Positions 12,342 through 57,137 of a DNA stretch of 64,000 nucleotides are shown here, one piece after another. The stretch lies in the NCBI GenBank assembly GCA_029262065.1, contig JAJDAC010000022.1, forward strand, positions 1 through 64,000, written 5' to 3'. This DNA comes from Candidatus Krumholzibacteriota bacterium (GTDB taxonomy: Bacteria > Krumholzibacteriota > Krumholzibacteriia > JAJRXK01). Every line of letters starts with the position of its first letter. Within the stretch, counting starts at the first letter, position 1. A model generated the notes under the pieces. That model was not told the DNA's origin, ran no database searches, and was given only the letters and a program-made list of their open reading frames with translations. The position numbers and the translations under genes are program-made.

Positions 12342-14435
12342 TCATTTGAGCAAGGTGGCGCGGCGCACAGCCTCGAATCCCGACGCCGTGGTCAGGCGGA
12401 AGTAGTAGACCCCGCTGGCCGCGGCCGACCCCTCACCATCGCGACCATTCCATGTGAACCGATGCAGGTCCTCGGGCAGGTCATCGTCGATCAGCGTCTC
12501 CACGCGGCGACCACGTACGTCATATATCTCCACTCGAACCCGTTCGGGCGAGGGAAGCAGAAACTGAACATTCAACTCGGGATTGAACGGGTTGGGAAAC
12601 GGCGGCAGGAATTGCACGGTGGAACTGGCCAGTACCGGCTGCACCGCGGCGTTGATCAACCAATCCTGATTGGGATCCACCTGTACGCTGTCTACATTCT
12701 GCGTACCGGGAAAATCGAAAGTCTGGTCCGCGCTCTCGATCCACACCGTATGATCTTCGAATGTTCCGCCTTCGAAGTTCAACCGAATGACCTGGGGCAA
12801 GCGAAAAGCACTCGCGGGATTCTGGGTAATTCTTACTCGCAGAGTGCCTTCAACCTGAAACGGCACCACGCGCAGCGAAGGCCGCGCGTCCGATCGCAAC
12901 CACGGTTCGAAGAACCAGTCGAGGCTGTCGTTCAGGAGAACCTTGGTCAGACCCTGGTCGCGCGCGACCTGCTCGCAATGACCCTGAAAGTCGGGCGTGG
13001 TCACCGTCTGGTGCCTCAGCGCGGGATCGGTCATGTAGTTGCTCATGGCCAGCAGCATGTTTTCCAGTCCCATCACCTGCCGCAGCTGATGAAGAACCCA
13101 CGCGCCCTTGTTGTACACGGTTGATCCGAAAAGTTGATCGGGATCGATCACGGTACCCTGGTAGTTGCCTTGGCGCTTGAACATGAGGCGCACCTTGGCC
13201 GCCTCGTATCCATACTTGTATTCATTCCAGAGTATCTCGCCGTAGCTGGCGAAACCCTCGTTCAGCCAGATCTCGCCCCAACGCGCGACCCGAACCGCGT
13301 CACCAAACCACTGGTGGATGGCTTCGTGCGCAACGACCCATTCCCCACTGGGTCCATCGTGCTCATCGGGCGAACCCAGCGACACCGACCACCATCCCAT
13401 GCTGGACATGGTGGGGTGTTCCATGGCGAAGGAGCTCATGAACAAGGCCATGCCGTACTTGATGTCGGCGTACGGATACGGGCCGAACATCTGCTCGAAG
13501 GTGGTGAGGATCTCGGCCGTGTTCTGCCACGTGTACTCGGCCCGCGCGCGCTCGATCGCCGGCGAGTAGTACTCGATAGGAGTCTGCACCAACTGCCCCG
13601 ATTCGAAATCGGTCAGGGTGACGGTCTCACTCCAGGTCTCGTAGTTGGCCAACGCCAACGAAACCAGATAAGCCGGAATCGGCTTGGACATGAACCAGGT
13701 CTGTCGACGCATGCCGCCGCCCAGCAGGTCGTCCTGGGTCCGGATGCCTGGTGCCGCCAGAACGAAAGCTTCGGGGGCGACGACCGAGAGCTCCACCGGA
13801 GACGCGTCGTACGGCGTATCGTGGCAGGGCCACCAACCGCGGGCCCCGTCGGGCTCGCTCAAGGTAGCCACCACCGGTTGCGTGGGATCGGGAAACGAAT
13901 CCTCGTCCACGAACAATCGTACGTCATAACCCTGTAGCCCCGACCGCTCGGGAATTCCGCCGTAATCCACACTGATCGTAGCTTCGACGTCCGGGGCCAA
14001 CGCGCTGGGCAAGGTCACCGTGAGCAGATCCGATTCATGCGTGAAGTTGGCGGCGGCTCCGTCCACGCGCACCGCGGACACGCTCAATCCCGCGTTGGCC
14101 AGATCCAGAACGACCTCGCTCAACGTTACGGTCGTCGCGGCCACGGTGATGTCCGCGGTTCCGTCGAGCCGGGCGTCGTTGGGATCGGGAACGATGGTCA
14201 GATCGAGCGCCACCATGCGCACGTCCATGGGACGATCGTTGCGTTCTCGCGGCGGCACCCGCTTGGTGGGAACGGCTTGTTTTTCCAACCGCTGTCCATC
14301 GAGATCTCGGTGGTCCAACACACAAACTCCGGCCTGGACCGGATCCACGACATAGGCGGGGAACGCCACGGCACCGAGAGCCAGGGCCACGAACACCAGA
14401 CCTCGAAGTCCGGGTGAAGAACAGGCATGCATCAT
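12342..14435 (-). CDS. Secreted M1-family aminopeptidase with C-terminal FlgD-like sorting domain
   Basis: A 697-residue exported zinc aminopeptidase. The zinc motif HEAIH lies at 370-374 and the third ligand is 19 residues on, in NEGFASYGE (Glu393), giving the HExxH-x18-E pattern of M1 peptidases. The exopeptidase segment normally GAMEN appears as FAMEH, a variant that keeps the central Met-Glu. The N-terminal ~180 residues form the family's beta saddle. The last ~90 residues start at FPNPFNPELNVQF and read IYDVRGRRVETL ... SGVYYFRL, a FlgD-like Ig domain used as a secretion signal in FCB bacteria. A signal peptide follows the start. The ATG pair at 14430-14435 is preceded by GGAGA; the start at 14537 is less likely. 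Confidence 0.9.
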   Translation of the reverse strand: MMHACSSPGLRGLVFVALALGAVAFPAYVVDPVQAGVCVLDHRDLDGQRLEKQAVPTKRVPPRERNDRPMDVRMVALDLTIVPDPNDARLDGTADITVAATTVTLSEVVLDLANAGLSVSAVRVDGAAANFTHESDLLTVTLPSALAPDVEATISVDYGGIPERSGLQGYDVRLFVDEDSFPDPTQPVVATLSEPDGARGWWPCHDTPYDASPVELSVVAPEAFVLAAPGIRTQDDLLGGGMRRQTWFMSKPIPAYLVSLALANYETWSETVTLTDFESGQLVQTPIEYYSPAIERARAEYTWQNTAEILTTFEQMFGPYPYADIKYGMALFMSSFAMEHPTMSSMGWWSVSLGSPDEHDGPSGEWVVAHEAIHQWFGDAVRVARWGEIWLNEGFASYGEILWNEYKYGYEAAKVRLMFKRQGNYQGTVIDPDQLFGSTVYNKGAWVLHQLRQVMGLENMLLAMSNYMTDPALRHQTVTTPDFQGHCEQVARDQGLTKVLLNDSLDWFFEPWLRSDARPSLRVVPFQVEGTLRVRITQNPASAFRLPQVIRLNFEGGTFEDHTVWIESADQTFDFPGTQNVDSVQVDPNQDWLINAAVQPVLASSTVQFLPPFPNPFNPELNVQFLLPSPERVRVEIYDVRGRRVETLIDDDLPEDLHRFTWNGRDGEGSAAASGVYYFRLTTASGFEAVRRATLLK

Positions 14436-51164: not shown

Positions 51165-52472
51165 ATGGCCGAGCGCGATTGGAAGGTCCCGGCGAAACGA
51201 CTCGAAGCCGGGTTCGAAGACAAGAAACCCGCGTTCGACGCGGGCGAGGCGCTGACGGAAGCCAGTCGTTGTCTGTATTGCTACGACGCACCGTGCATTC
51301 CGGCGTGTCCCACGGCCATCGACATCCCCACGTTCATCCGGAAGATCGGCACGGACAACCTCCGCGGTTCGGCCCGTACCATTCTGGAGTCCAATCTACT
51401 GGGCCGTAGCTGTTCGCAGGTGTGTCCGGTCGAGGTGCTGTGCGAAGGCGCGTGTGTGTACACGGGCTGGGGTCGCAAGCCCATCGAGATCGGTCGACTG
51501 CAACGGTTCGCCATGGAAAGCGCGCAGTCGCCAGACCTGCTGCCACGACAACCAGCCACCGGCCACAAGATCGCTTTGGTCGGCGCCGGGCCAGCCTCGC
51601 TGGCTTGCGCCGGCACGCTCGTTCAGATGGGCCACGAGGCCGTGGTGTTCGAGAGAGATGCACTTCCCGGTGGCCTCAACATGACCGGCGTGGCGCCCTA
51701 CAAGTTCCGCGCGGAATCGACGTTGGCCGAGGTGGAGTTCATCCGTTCTCTGGGCGTGGAGATTCGCACCGGCGTGGAGATCGGACGGGACTTCACCGCC
51801 GAGCAGCTACTGGAAGACTACGATGCGGTGTTTCTGGGCGTTGGCCTGGGCAGCGACAGCCTGCGTGGTATTCCGGCGATCGAGGGCACCGGTGTGATCG
51901 GTGCCGTGCAATGGATTCGCGGCATGAAGCTCGACCCGGCCACCAGTGTGGATGGAGTTGGTCACGCGATCGTGGTCGGCGGCGGCAACACCGCACTCGA
52001 CGTGGTGCAGGAGTTGGCCACGCTCGGCGTACCATCGGTGCACATGGTGTACCGACGCGGTTTGGCCGACATGTCGGGCTACGCACACGAGTTCAAGAAC
52101 GCCCGGAACGTGGGCGTGCGGGCCGTCGAGCACGCGACTCCGGCGAAACTGGAATGGCGCGACGGTCGCCTGGTGGGTGTCTCGCTCGAGTCCACCCAGT
52201 CACCCGCGTCGTTCGAGTCTCGCGACATGCCCTGTGACCTGCTGGTGGTCGCCACCGGCCAGGGCCGGCTGCGCGATCTGGTGGAACAGTTCCCCCAGGT
52301 CGAATGCGATCAAAGCGGCCGGGTGGTCGCCGAACCGGAAAGCCTGGTCACGGGAAACCCGCGCGTCTTCACCGGCGGCGATTGCTACAACGGCGGTAAA
52401 GAGGTCGTGAACGCCGCGGCCGAAGGCCAGCGCGCGGCCCGCGCCATCGACGAACTCCTGCGCCAGGGCTAG
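51165..52472 (+). CDS. preT: NAD-dependent dihydropyrimidine dehydrogenase, flavoprotein subunit PreT
   Basis: FAD subunit that passes electrons between NAD(P)H and the pyrimidine-reducing PreA. The 435-residue product is GltD-like: N-terminal Fe-S cysteines C36, C39, C44, C48 (RCLYCYDAPCIPACP) and C83, C87, C93, C97, an FAD-binding VGAGPASLACAG near residue 118, a pyridine-nucleotide motif VVGGGNTALD near 270, and the C-terminal TGGDCYNGGKEVVNAAAEG. It starts three bases after the aminotransferase stop. PreT and PreA together correspond to the two ends of the mammalian DPD enzyme. Confidence 0.9.
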   Translation: MAERDWKVPAKRLEAGFEDKKPAFDAGEALTEASRCLYCYDAPCIPACPTAIDIPTFIRKIGTDNLRGSARTILESNLLGRSCSQVCPVEVLCEGACVYTGWGRKPIEIGRLQRFAMESAQSPDLLPRQPATGHKIALVGAGPASLACAGTLVQMGHEAVVFERDALPGGLNMTGVAPYKFRAESTLAEVEFIRSLGVEIRTGVEIGRDFTAEQLLEDYDAVFLGVGLGSDSLRGIPAIEGTGVIGAVQWIRGMKLDPATSVDGVGHAIVVGGGNTALDVVQELATLGVPSVHMVYRRGLADMSGYAHEFKNARNVGVRAVEHATPAKLEWRDGRLVGVSLESTQSPASFESRDMPCDLLVVATGQGRLRDLVEQFPQVECDQSGRVVAEPESLVTGNPRVFTGGDCYNGGKEVVNAAAEGQRAARAIDELLRQG

Positions 52473-52506: not shown

Positions 52507-53880
52507 ATGCCCGACCTGTCCATCGACTTCGCCGGCATTCGTAGCCCCAATCCGTTCTGGTTGGCGTCGGCTCCCCCCACCAACTCCGGCGACCAGATCA
52601 TGCGCGCTTTCGACGCCGGTTGGGGCGGCGCGGTGTGGAAAACGCTGGGCACCCCCATCATCAACGTTTCGAGCCGACTGGGCTCGGTGGACCTGGGCGA
52701 TCGGCGCATGATGGGTTTGAACAACATCGAACTCATCACCGATCGGCCGCTCGATGTGAACCTGCGCGAGATCGCCGAGGTGAAGAAGAAGTACCCCCAC
52801 CACGCGGTGATCGTGTCGTTGATGTTCGACACGCCCGAAGAATGGGCCGACATCCTGAAGCGCTGTGAAGACACCGGCTGTGACGGAGTGGAGTTGAACT
52901 TTGGATGTCCGCACGGCATGTGCGAGCGCGGCATGGGATCGGCCGTGGGTCAGGAACCGAAGGTGCTGACCGAGCTGGTGAAGTGGGTCATGGACTCCAC
53001 GACGTTGCCCGTGATCGCCAAACTCACCCCCAACGTGTCGGAGATCGTGGATCCCGCGCTGGCGGCGCAGGCCGGCGGCGCGCACGCGGTGTCGTTGATC
53101 AATACCATCAAGAGTGTGGTGGGAGTCGACCTGGACCGTTTGGTTCCAGTTCCTCGCGTGAACGATGCTTCGTCGCACGGGGGCTATTGCGGCCCGGCTG
53201 TGAAACCTATCGCCCTGCGTATGGTGGCCGAACTGTTTCGGCAGCCGGATTTCTCACTTCCCATTTCGGGCATCGGCGGCATTTCCAGCTGGCGCGACGC
53301 GGCCGAGTTCATCGCCCTGGGCGCGGGGTCGGTGCAGGTGTGCACGGCCGTGATGCACCATGGCTATCGCATCGTGGAAGACATGATCGAGGGGCTGGAC
53401 GAGTACCTGGTGAGCAAGAACATGTCATCGGTTCAGGAGCTGGTGGGCGCCGCCAACGCGGGCTTTCGCGAATGGGGCGAGTTGGATCTGAACTACCACG
53501 TGGTGGCCAAGATCGACGAGGCCAAATGCATCGGCTGCAACCTGTGTCATGTTGCTTGTTGGGACGGCGCGCATCAGTGCATTCATATGCCCGGGACGGC
53601 GGCCATCGAGGGGCATGTGGCACCGATGGCGGCTACGGCGAAGAAGCGGGCTTTTGAGGCGGCGTCGCTCATTGCTTCGGGGCGGACCGATGTTGAACCG
53701 TACCGGGTGCCGTGGGTGGATGAGACCGAGTGCGTGGGGTGCAACCTGTGTTGGTTGGTCTGCCCGGTGAGCGGGTGTATTGAGATGGTCGAGCAGCGGC
53801 GGGCACCGGAGACGGATACGTGGAATGATCGGGTGCGGGAAGGGCGGGATTTCGTGCCCGGTGGGTTGAAGGATATCTAG
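52507..53880 (+). CDS. preA: NAD-dependent dihydropyrimidine dehydrogenase, catalytic subunit PreA
   Basis: FMN/Fe-S subunit that reduces uracil or thymine to the dihydropyrimidine. Residues 1-330 are the dihydroorotate-dehydrogenase-like barrel with ASAPPTNSGDQI, NFGCPHGM and ISGIGGISSWRDAAEFIALGA. The C-terminus holds two 4Fe-4S sets: CIGCNLCHVAC from Cys341 and CVGCNLCWLVC from Cys409. Length (457) is a little above E. coli PreA. AAAGAGGA precedes the ATG. The last ~80 codons switch to a different codon style: all eight Arg codons are CGG and five of six Gly codons are GGG, while the rest of the gene mostly uses CGC and GGC. Confidence 0.93.
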   Translation: MPDLSIDFAGIRSPNPFWLASAPPTNSGDQIMRAFDAGWGGAVWKTLGTPIINVSSRLGSVDLGDRRMMGLNNIELITDRPLDVNLREIAEVKKKYPHHAVIVSLMFDTPEEWADILKRCEDTGCDGVELNFGCPHGMCERGMGSAVGQEPKVLTELVKWVMDSTTLPVIAKLTPNVSEIVDPALAAQAGGAHAVSLINTIKSVVGVDLDRLVPVPRVNDASSHGGYCGPAVKPIALRMVAELFRQPDFSLPISGIGGISSWRDAAEFIALGAGSVQVCTAVMHHGYRIVEDMIEGLDEYLVSKNMSSVQELVGAANAGFREWGELDLNYHVVAKIDEAKCIGCNLCHVACWDGAHQCIHMPGTAAIEGHVAPMAATAKKRAFEAASLIASGRTDVEPYRVPWVDETECVGCNLCWLVCPVSGCIEMVEQRRAPETDTWNDRVREGRDFVPGGLKDI

Positions 53881-53922
53881 GGCGGGGTTGCCAGCACCCG
53901 CAAATCTCTTCAAACAAACCAC

Positions 53923-53951
53923 TTGCAAACCAAACATGTGTTTGTTATATT
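53923..53951 (+). promoter_or_regulatory. AT-rich sigma-70-type promoter of the HNH gene, with inverted repeat
   Basis: TTGCAA (53923-53928) and TATATT (53946-53951) are 17 bases apart, the best promoter match I found here. The spacer contains CAAACA-TG-TGTTTG (53931-53944), an inverted repeat placed where a repressor would block polymerase. The sequence is notably AT-rich against its surroundings. The predicted transcript start is near 53958. Confidence 0.6.
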
Positions 53952-53993
53952 CCTTTGGTCAACGAGTCCTCAGCCTCCCAGTTGCGGACAACC

Positions 53994-55907
53994 GTGGCTT
54001 CCGATCTACGACAATCCAATGAACAACAAGTAGACGCATCACCCGCGGCGAATCGAGCGCGCGAGTTCCGCGTCCGACCGAACGCCCGCATTGCGGAGCT
54101 GAGTCTCGCCGCGTTCCGCTTCCGGCAACGATGTTGTCACCGCGAGCTGGGTTTCTCATCGCTGCGTGACTATGTCCGCGCACGCGCGGGCATTCAATGG
54201 GCCGCATGGTCCAGCTACGTTCGGGCCGGACGTGTCCTGACAGCATCACCGCAAACGTCCATCCAGTTCACCAACGGGCAACTGGCCTTCTCCACGGTGG
54301 AACGAATGGCGTCGCAGGCCGATCCGTCTCGCTGGGAAGCACTAGCAAGCGAACTGGCAGGTCTACCCGTGCGCCAGGCGCGCGACAAGCTGGCTCTCGA
54401 AACCAAACCTGCAAACACTCCCCCGGCACACATGCCCGATGGCACGATTCACGTGTCGATCTCAATGCCCGTCGCCGTCGCGTCATACGTAGAAGATACC
54501 GTCGAACTTGCCGCGTACCTGCTGGGCGACCAGGCAACCGACGAACGATGCCTGGATGCAATATGCGCAGAGGCAGCTACCGAGATCAACGCCACCGTGG
54601 AAATAGAAACCGCTGTGTCGCGACTCGATTCATCGATGCGCTTGAGGCCTGGCCAAATACCAAGGCCAGCCAGTGACCCCCTAGAATCGGAAGTGGCGCA
54701 AAAGGATCAGCCGAAACCTATCGACGCCAAAGCGCTAGCTGGCCAGGTTGACGCTCGGATTGTGCGACTACTGCAAGAACATCAGAAACTGGACATGGAA
54801 CGCGAAGACGAACTGCTTTCCATGCTCCACGACGACGTCCACGGGCAGTGCGGTTTTCCCAACTTCGAACGGTTCGTGAAAGCGCGGCTGGGTATCTCGG
54901 CCAGAACTTCCCACGCGATGCGGCGCCGCGCCCGCGAGAGACGGGCCAACCACCCCCTGGCCATCGCACGCGCGCACGGCCAGCTATCGGCATTTCAATT
55001 CGACGAACTGCATCGGCTCGAGCGGAGCGCGGGGATACCCCGCTCATCGCTGGGCGCTTGGATTGCCGAGGCGTCGCGTGGCAGTACGCGACAACTCACC
55101 CTCATGGTGAACTGGGGCATTCGAAGATCGCGCGAGGATTACTGTGGCCTGAGCGGCAAGAACTTCGCGCCACCCAGCCGCAAGGAACTGCAAACGTCCA
55201 TCCAATCTCCCACGGCGATCGCCGCCAACCCCGCTATTCCCGAATGGGAAGAGGGCGCTCCGAGCGGAGGCCGAGACGGCCAAAACGACACCATGGTAGC
55301 CATCCAATGGTCACTCTCCGAGGAAACAGTCCATTCACTGCTACAACTCATGGCCTCGGTGGCAGAACAGGCCAGGCTGATCGCAAGCCGCCGACTGCAA
55401 ACGTCCACCCAGGATCTCCCCCTGCCCCCGCCGTGGTGGTCACTCCTACGCATCTGCTATGTGGCACGTACTGCGTGGGCAGACTTGATCGATGCCAGCG
55501 CGCGGGCGTACGAGTACCAGCACATTCTCGAACGGGACCGATTCCAATGCGCGGCGCCCGAATGCACCAAACGCCGCCAACTGGAGACCCACCACATCAT
55601 CTATCAGAGTCGCGGCGGCAACGATCACGTCACAAACCTGGTTACGCTATGCCACTATCACCACCATCATGGAGAGCACGGCGGCCGCATTCGCGTGCGC
55701 GGCGAAGCCCACGAAGGTGGTCACAGCCTGAAATGGAACATGGGAGTCCTGGGTCAATGGAACGGCGATCGCAGGGTCGTAAACGACACGCATCGATTGA
55801 TGGCGCCACCCACGTCATCTACAATCCCATCCCCCGCAACGACAGTCTCTGGCGTGCCGCCCCGTCCTCACAGACCGGCGGATGATCCAGCATCCATTTC
55901 CATCTAG
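53994..55907 (+). CDS. HNH endonuclease-domain protein with duplicated helical N-terminal region
   Basis: About 637 residues. The C-terminal HNH nuclease domain has the zinc-type pair DRFQCAAPEC and the core LETHHIIYQSRGGNDHVTNLVTLCHYHHHHGEHGG, fitting a His-Asn-His metal site on a beta-beta-alpha fold. The N-terminal part contains two similar helical units: CHRELGFSSLRDYVRARAGI near the start and GFPNFERFVKARLGISARTSH in the middle. Such proteins are widespread stand-alone HNH proteins of unknown role. An in-frame TTG at 53955 gives a longer protein but lies at or before the predicted transcript start, so I prefer GTG 53994; neither has a clear ribosome-binding site. Its AT-rich promoter suggests acquisition. 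The hydrolase-OsmC gene follows after 15 bases. Confidence 0.8.
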   Translation: MASDLRQSNEQQVDASPAANRAREFRVRPNARIAELSLAAFRFRQRCCHRELGFSSLRDYVRARAGIQWAAWSSYVRAGRVLTASPQTSIQFTNGQLAFSTVERMASQADPSRWEALASELAGLPVRQARDKLALETKPANTPPAHMPDGTIHVSISMPVAVASYVEDTVELAAYLLGDQATDERCLDAICAEAATEINATVEIETAVSRLDSSMRLRPGQIPRPASDPLESEVAQKDQPKPIDAKALAGQVDARIVRLLQEHQKLDMEREDELLSMLHDDVHGQCGFPNFERFVKARLGISARTSHAMRRRARERRANHPLAIARAHGQLSAFQFDELHRLERSAGIPRSSLGAWIAEASRGSTRQLTLMVNWGIRRSREDYCGLSGKNFAPPSRKELQTSIQSPTAIAANPAIPEWEEGAPSGGRDGQNDTMVAIQWSLSEETVHSLLQLMASVAEQARLIASRRLQTSTQDLPLPPPWWSLLRICYVARTAWADLIDASARAYEYQHILERDRFQCAAPECTKRRQLETHHIIYQSRGGNDHVTNLVTLCHYHHHHGEHGGRIRVRGEAHEGGHSLKWNMGVLGQWNGDRRVVNDTHRLMAPPTSSTIPSPATTVSGVPPRPHRPADDPASISI

Positions 55908-55922: not shown

Positions 55923-57137
55923 ATGCCCGAAAGCAAGGAACTGCGTTTCCTCAACCGCTCCGGCGAAGAACTCTCGGGACGGCTCGAACTGCCGGCCGGA
56001 CCCATCCGCGCCACGGCTATCTTCGCCCACTGCTTCACGTGCTCGAAGAACGTGCACGCAGCCAGCCGCATCAGCCGCGCCCTCAGCGCGCGGGGGTTTG
56101 CCGTCCTACGTTTCGATTTCACGGGGCTGGGCAACAGCGATGGTGACTTCGCGAACACGAACTTTACAACCAACGTCGAAGACCTGCTGGCCGCGGCCGA
56201 ACATCTGGATGATCAGGTCGGCTCGCCGCAATTGCTCGTGGGGCATAGTCTGGGCGGGGCCGCCGTTCTGGCCGCGGCGCCCCAAATCACTTCGGTGGAA
56301 GCTGTCGTCACCATTGGCGCACCATCCGATCCGGCGCACGTGGTCGCCCACATGGGCAGTGGCATTCAGCAGATCCAGGAACAGGGTTCTGCACCCGTCA
56401 AACTCGGCGGCCGCGAGTTCACGATTACCCGGCAGTTCCTCGACGACGTTTCCAGCCAACGCCTGGCCGGGCAGATCAGCCAACTCGACGCATCGCTGTT
56501 GGTGCTTCATTCCCCCATCGACGAGATCGTGGGCATCGAACACGCCCGCCAGATCTACGAAGCAGCTCGCCACCCCAAGAGCTTTGTCACACTCGACCAG
56601 GCCGACCACCTACTCACGCGGGAAGCCGATGCCGAGTACGTGGCCGAACTCATCTCAGCCTGGGCCAGCCGGTATCTGGCACCGGCGGAAGCCTCATCTC
56701 AACCGGCCGAGGGCATCGTCCGCGTATCTGAAGACGGCCCCAAGTACGGCCAAACCGTCAGCGCTCCTCCGCACGCCCTGCGCGCCGATGAACCACGCAG
56801 CGTCGGCGGTGCCGACAGCGGCGCGTCGCCGTACGACCTTCTCCTGGCCGCCCTCGGCTCGTGCACCAGCATGACCCTGCGCATGTACGCCGACCGGAAG
56901 AAGTGGCCGCTCGAACACGTGTCGGTAGACCTGGAACACAGCCGTATCCACGCCAGCGACTGCGACACGTGCGAGACCGAAAAAGGCAAGGTGAGCCAGA
57001 TTGAACGCGTGATAACGCTGCAGGGTCCACTAGACAATGAACAGCGAGCACGGCTACTCGAAATCGCCGACCGCTGTCCCGTGCATCGAACAATCACCGA
57101 AGACAACCAGATCGTGACTCGACTGGAGGGAGGCTGA
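55923..57137 (+). CDS. Alpha/beta-hydrolase fused to OsmC-family peroxidase domain
   Basis: A 404-residue two-domain protein. Residues 1-255 are an alpha/beta hydrolase with the nucleophile elbow VGHSLGG (Ser109), an oxyanion region FAHCFTCSKN, and the late acid and His in SPIDEIVG and DQADHLL. Residues about 265-404 form an OsmC-like domain with the two redox cysteines Cys314 (LGSCTSMTLRMYADRK) and Cys385 (DRCPVHRTI), which reduce organic hydroperoxides in OsmC/Ohr proteins. This fusion is known in other bacteria; the hydrolase substrate is not. The ATG lies 15 bases after the HNH stop, so they may be cotranscribed. Confidence 0.9.
   Translation: MPESKELRFLNRSGEELSGRLELPAGPIRATAIFAHCFTCSKNVHAASRISRALSARGFAVLRFDFTGLGNSDGDFANTNFTTNVEDLLAAAEHLDDQVGSPQLLVGHSLGGAAVLAAAPQITSVEAVVTIGAPSDPAHVVAHMGSGIQQIQEQGSAPVKLGGREFTITRQFLDDVSSQRLAGQISQLDASLLVLHSPIDEIVGIEHARQIYEAARHPKSFVTLDQADHLLTREADAEYVAELISAWASRYLAPAEASSQPAEGIVRVSEDGPKYGQTVSAPPHALRADEPRSVGGADSGASPYDLLLAALGSCTSMTLRMYADRKKWPLEHVSVDLEHSRIHASDCDTCETEKGKVSQIERVITLQGPLDNEQRARLLEIADRCPVHRTITEDNQIVTRLEGG

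Follow-up and report, generated by a model that had tools for sequence, protein, structure and literature searches.

A silent codon shift at the 3' end of preA beside a dispersed HNH-family gene in a Krumholzibacteriota genome

When codon usage switches abruptly within a gene, the usual reading is foreign DNA, and the locus described here raises the question of whether such a reading holds for the end of preA in Candidatus Krumholzibacteriota bacterium. The gene lies in a window of 64,000 nucleotides (the whole stretch that was analyzed, from contig JAJDAC010000022.1), in tandem with a preT-like gene whose product is likely its partner. The protein scores 636 bits against NCBIfam NF006183, for which the curated equivalog cut-off is 335, and belongs to PreA by this measure. 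On the 3' side of preA there is an AT-rich island and then an HNH-domain gene (Table 1), directly followed by a gene (55923-57137) that combines an alpha/beta hydrolase part with an OsmC-like one. An initial annotation had noticed the codon usage at this junction and proposed either recombination with a donor whose codon preferences differed or the edge of an inserted HNH element, while allowing for a chance run in a short stretch.

Table 1. Features of the preA locus, in positions of the window.
Feature	Position	Strand	Basis or remark
preT-like subunit (4Fe-4S, FAD/NAD oxidoreductase)	51165..52472	+	Pfam Fer4_20 and Pyr_redox_2
preA, NAD-dependent dihydropyrimidine dehydrogenase subunit	52507..53880	+	NCBIfam NF006183
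Codon-shifted tail of preA	53542..53880	+	third positions C-depleted and G/T-rich; most marked over roughly the final 80-90 codons
Second 4Fe-4S cysteine motif, CVGCNLCWLVCPVSGC, within the patch	53731..53778	+	sequence; Pfam Fer4, residues 403-421
G-quadruplex-type run, GGGTGCGGGAAGGGCGGG, within the patch (candidate only)	53831..53848	+	pattern scan
Sigma-70-like promoter, TTGCAA-17-TATATT, in the AT-rich island	53923..53951	+	promoter scan; aligns with regions before the HNH paralogues
Dyad CAAACATGTGTTTG between the promoter hexamers (possible operator)	53931..53944	+	CAAACN4GTTTG scan
Conserved HNH-family leader, core	53971..53985	+	alignment of 5; 7 genome sites at 0-1 mismatch
HNH-domain gene, dispersed family	53994..55907 (about)	+	GTG start inferred from paralogues; the ORF list has TTG 53955

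A recount of the stretch from 53640 to 53880 agrees with what the annotation had reported: all eight Arg codons (53647 to 53845) are CGG and five of the six Gly codons are GGG, the exception being GGT at 53860. The 16 Arg codons that precede 53640 comprise nine CGC, three CGG, three CGT and one CGA. The patch itself is real, and the extent first given to it, the last ~80 codons and Arg and Gly only, was too narrow. In a change-point fit the shift starts at codon 346 (53542), with a log-likelihood gain of 13.4, and Asp moves as well, from 17 GAC and 7 GAT before about 53617 to none and six thereafter. Because Asp exchanges GAC for GAT, what disappears is third-position C, and the patch is a loss of third-position C that is wider than Arg and Gly; among the codons able to end in C, 148/279 do so before 53542 and 20/89 after it. 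GC content is 0.65 up to 53820, and GC skew peaks at +0.38 at 53701-53820; beyond 53941, most bins have a skew below or close to zero. The G-rich tract runs to about the stop codon and abuts the presumed insertion at its promoter. The cysteine motif of the second 4Fe-4S domain does lie inside the patch, as had been claimed, whereas the reported return of C-rich codon use beyond the island is not seen in the HNH gene, with third positions that are A-rich (z +6.75) and G-poor (z -2.78). An ORF on the opposite strand, 170 aa long, covers the preA tail.

How unusual such a tail is was judged from 98 stretches covering 1.92 of the 5.77 Mb of this genome. preA ranks first of 1181 script-called genes in both statistics used (426,533 80-codon windows), with an Arg+Gly z of 7.23 (next gene 5.58) and a z over all four-fold boxes of 5.71 (next gene 5.36); the gene caller was a simple ORF picker, and other single ranks are to be taken loosely. 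None of 50,000 within-gene synonymous permutations reached the preA Arg+Gly statistic. These ranks and permutations speak against a chance run, and the equally long CGG runs that the annotation suggested looking for did not turn up in this sampled third of the genome, where preA has the longest at eight and the next is seven. Nor does the tract recur elsewhere in the genome, in which a query of 53585-54060 matched itself and three promoter-leader sites only.

An extreme value may still be the end of an ordinary distribution. Under local compositional drift, third positions would be patchy, 3' ends would lean slightly toward G, preA would be the extreme case and its HNH neighbor incidental, and this is the main rival to any reading that involves the HNH gene because G-rich patches favor gene ends without HNH genes here. 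Gene 3' ends in this genome lean slightly G-rich, HNH gene or not: the z of the last 80 codons has a mean of about 0.2 and an SD of about 1.2 across 981 genes, a permutation p of 0.05 is reached by 41 of 599 genes where 30 are expected, and 13 of the top 60 Arg+Gly windows in the 98 stretches lie within 15 codons of a stop (3.2 expected). However, preA stands clear of this spread (7.23 versus 5.58) and beyond 50,000 permutations, and tails that face HNH-family sites exceed operon-end controls, as set out below. We regard drift as possible, if rather less probable than the reading that we come to favor. Among the top 60 all-box windows, 10 lie within 15 codons of a stop, where 3.0 are expected. 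The orientation of the downstream neighbor was considered as a general cause and set aside, there being no clear difference among four classes in 568 genes.

Comparison with relatives bears on the question of a donor. A first search found long preA orthologues, 58-63% identical, in 3 of 57 other genomes, and a scan of genome contigs then supplied the best 80 of 567 confirmed loci. Among the matches listed from these best 80 of 567, L058 and L059 are the nearest, with identities of 80% and 78% in the body and 68% and 71% in the tail, and the next tail is at 57%. Pairwise identities within the trio of the window gene, L058 and L059 are 0.80, 0.78 and 0.78 for the body and 0.69, 0.71 and 0.72 for the tail, and thus in proportion. 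The tail tree has 81 rows and 83 columns, few for a tree of that size; the window sequence is held there by supported sets of which the smallest have two rows (100/92) and three rows (99/83), with L059 nearest and then L058. The body tree, of 82 rows and 366 columns, places it in a set of three rows (98), and the nearest rows are again L058 and L059. Both trees were built without L025, a fragment, and L106, which starts at a contig edge, and the tail tree also without one further row that had too few residues. Because body and tail trees give the same nearest relatives, preA, tail included, was most likely inherited vertically and a distant donor is not supported. The separate tree that the annotation had thought worth seeking for the last codons is therefore not found in this set, and the recombination junction that it proposed is not supported in so far as the donor was distant. 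It had also supposed that relatives sharing both the patch and one consistent tree would undo its reading; the tree is one, and the patch is not shared.

At the third positions of jointly aligned tail codons, the window has 13 C and 51 G, L058 has 34 and 27, and L059 has 32 and 37. Tail C numbers 16 at codon position 1 (20 and 22 in the two relatives) and 19 at position 2 (25 and 20); C is low mainly at position 3, and the loss is therefore mostly at silent sites. CGG and GGG make up a fraction of 0.93 in the last 80 codons of the window gene and at most 0.58 in the 82 other preA sequences compared (best 80 of 567), none of which has a tail like it, and the shift appears lineage-specific as far as sampled. 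Since a distant donor is at odds with the protein tree, the patch of silent changes would seem to have formed on the spot or to have come from a very close lineage. Compared with the two nearest relatives, the preA linker has eight extra residues before the second cluster (53668-53691).

A very close lineage could have supplied the tail by homologous recombination, as an allele from the same clade that preferred CGG, GGG and GAT. A change point within the gene that leaves the protein intact, a tail that groups with the same clade and a relative, L059, that is somewhat CGG-rich (6/10 CGN codons in its last 90) are all consistent with such an exchange. However, no similar tail occurs among the 82 other preA sequences just described, and the tract ends near the stop, beside the HNH promoter; we consider recombination of this kind unlikely.

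The gene next to the tail is one of five long family copies in this genome, which sit beside unrelated genes. The window gene is 48-54% identical to the four other long copies, with one weak HNH-only match in addition, and two genomes of the same family contain three remote matches at 35-38% identity. Its Pfam HNH-type matches lie below the gathering cut-offs (20.6 against 27.5 and 19.9 against 21.4 bits), and matches to HNH families of PHROGs (best 9e-8) and to IscB (40.8 bits, where the cut-off is 175) lend weaker support to a nuclease-like protein, a putative HNH endonuclease. A tblastn search with the HNH protein found no match in the DNA around preA in L058 and L059, while five own-genome controls all matched, and the whole genomes of these two relatives gave 0/2 in a search without a positive control there. 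Patch and HNH neighbor are thus both absent in 2/2 nearest relatives, which are 20-25% diverged in the body protein.

The five copies share a promoter region and a leader in alignment, and the leader core occurs at seven genome sites with 0-1 mismatch; a further 29 sites with two mismatches were left out of the analysis. Two of the seven sites lack a full gene as far as the sequence reaches: one, on contig C5, is a relic, and the other, on C11, meets the contig end. The promoter at the head of the window gene, which the annotation ranked as the best of its kind in the window, has 9/12 matches and ties with two others in 45-64 kb, where 3.5 are expected by chance; the call is supported because it aligns with the regions before the HNH paralogues. 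A scan of the 98 stretches and three LexA loci gave six occurrences of the dyad pattern CAAACN4GTTTG, of which four lie at promoters or leader sites of the family; the copies on C17 and C20 lack its exact form. An SOS (LexA) operator was considered and rejected, the pattern being absent from the three LexA homologue loci (1.5 kb flanks); one of the six sites is 2.7 kb before the LexA homologue of C49.

Several further observations concern this family and its genome. The leader (53960-53996) and its six other sites show strong conservation against only about 50% identity among the proteins, and the leader may therefore be under constraint as a regulatory or recombination sequence. In this one genome, three matches to the LexA family exceed the curated cut-off, on contigs C49, C14 and C41. 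The relic HNH locus (L015 about 13840-14100; C5 near 34028, minus strand) retains promoter, dyad and leader, and its coding part is mostly lost except for three copies of a short motif. That motif, around CGTCCATCCA, is found at 54255, 55194 and 55401 of the window and also in L150, L157, L168, L169, L152 and L015. It is read inside HNH genes in two frames, as A/T-S-I-Q/H and A-S-V-H-P, and outside them it forms short arrays with a spacing of 36-42 bases; GCGTCCATCCA has 16 occurrences in 1.92 Mb against one for a reversed control. At L152 6380-6640 (C17), where no HNH copy is reported, three spaced copies of the motif (one mismatched) have a repeated TCGTTTGGTCGACA stretch between them.

If the HNH gene matters to the patch, other gene tails that face family sites should lean the same way. 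Tails were scored over their last 80 codons (all-box z/Arg+Gly z), with 552 operon-end genes as controls, cases excluded. The preA tail scores 5.4/6.9. The others in this genome are the C17 TPR tail (2.97/4.20), the C5 upstream tail (1.76/3.53), the C17 recD2-like tail (1.80/0.97), the C5 relic convergent tail (2.96/1.30), the C5 relic upstream tail (0.79/2.26), the C11 upstream tail (1.38/1.79) and the C5 3'-side tail, which has no shift (0.59/-0.34). These seven average 1.75/1.96 against 0.23/0.19 in the controls (P 0.0012/0.0003), a link that is partly post hoc in that the first cases were examined while the idea was forming; for the three tails found afterwards (the C5 relic pair and C11), P is 0.02 for either mean. 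Two other genomes offer one tail each facing a remote family member, with 2.18/1.95 and 2.94/0.59 (P 0.004/0.07), and the third remote match faces a gene start. An opposite shift at five gene starts across from copies was not significant (P 0.10, 0.08; one of the five, C20 phosphatase-like, is cut inside the gene), and the gene start after the window's own HNH copy has no such shift. The data thus give some support to a statistical association of HNH-family sites with a G shift in the tails of neighboring genes. The suggestion that the patch marks the edge of an HNH element is borne out in part, by the lack of an HNH gene in the DNA around preA in L058 and L059, by the paralogues and by other tails that lean likewise.

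Taken together, these data lead us to favor, tentatively and somewhat short of an even chance, the view that the preA tail is an element-linked repair or gene-conversion tract, produced when the HNH gene arrived. About 340 bases at the 3' end of preA, up to the HNH promoter, have lost silent coding-strand C and gained G and T. We envision that the HNH gene was inserted here, rather than lost in the relatives, and that its arrival involved a break beside preA; one strand would then have been resected, and synthesis or conversion would have kept the protein and altered the silent sites. A strand whose 3' end points to the insertion and which has lost C would be compatible with a resected end that was damaged or copied with bias. 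The sequence of steps is tentative, since even the nearest relatives differ by 20-25% in the body protein. Several findings count against a repair or conversion tract: the C5 3'-side tail is unshifted and three other tails are mild, gene starts across from copies have no significant opposite shift, the tract has no further copy in the genome, the HNH matches are below the Pfam cut-offs, and G-rich patches favor gene 3' ends without any HNH gene.

The same association between tails and HNH sites would arise if the family lands preferentially beside strand ends that are already G-rich and C-poor, the patch coming first and then serving as a target. The two nearest relatives without the gene are also without the patch, although they are too diverged for timing, and we judge this order of events very unlikely. 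Least credible of all is that the silent changes were selected, for an RNA or DNA structure or for an overlapping gene: the G4-type run, some 30 bases ahead of the stop codon, and the antisense ORF noted above would suit such selection, but the relatives lack the patch, and synonymous resamples are predicted to fold more strongly than the tail itself (z +1.3), an absence of folding excess on which RNA structure was rejected as a cause.

Returning to a tract formed by repair or conversion as the HNH gene arrived, one may ask whether it applies beyond preA. It is conceivable, though doubtful, that dispersed free-standing HNH genes generally adjoin gene ends depleted in silent C over a few hundred bases, whether as a scar of strand-specific breakage and repair or through target preference. 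If so, codon usage alone would show where such genes have landed. Should the link to HNH sites hold, earlier insertions or repair events would be on record in codon patches, which would offer a way to test how these little-known genes spread.

In the literature searched, we found no article on codon patches at 3' ends. In the part of PMC12725619 available to us, unusual mutation rates at the 5' ends of bacterial genes similarly make silent sites depend on position within the gene; unlike those 5' ends, the case here is a 3' tail in one lineage. The REP13E12 / HNH endonuclease / DUF222 repeats of mycobacteria, as presented in the portion of PMC10589994 at hand, are likewise a multicopy HNH family dispersed in one genome, but a Pfam scan of the window's HNH gene gave no DUF222 domain among its matches at E 0.001. 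The closest parallel comes from homing introns, which can replace flanking exon sequence and leave tracts marked largely by silent differences, as described for the plant cox1 intron in the available part of PMC3192709. Minimum tract lengths there are 3 to 78 bases, compared with about 340 here. Unlike that intron, the HNH gene at preA is free-standing, and there is no known donor allele, none of the 82 preA sequences compared having a similar tail, although a donor may lie outside that sample; unlike a homing element with a single site, its family has five long copies at unrelated sites. Because the gene is free-standing, has many sites and no known donor, and scores below the Pfam HNH cut-offs, we do not file the preA tail as a homing co-conversion tract, which it would resemble in outline only. 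Relatives free of both the insertion and the tract, here two that are 20-25% diverged and may instead have lost the gene, would be a further likeness. As far as the cox1 source goes, that outline is nonetheless the same in one respect: a coding stretch with mainly silent differences abuts a nuclease-bearing insertion, here a putative one.
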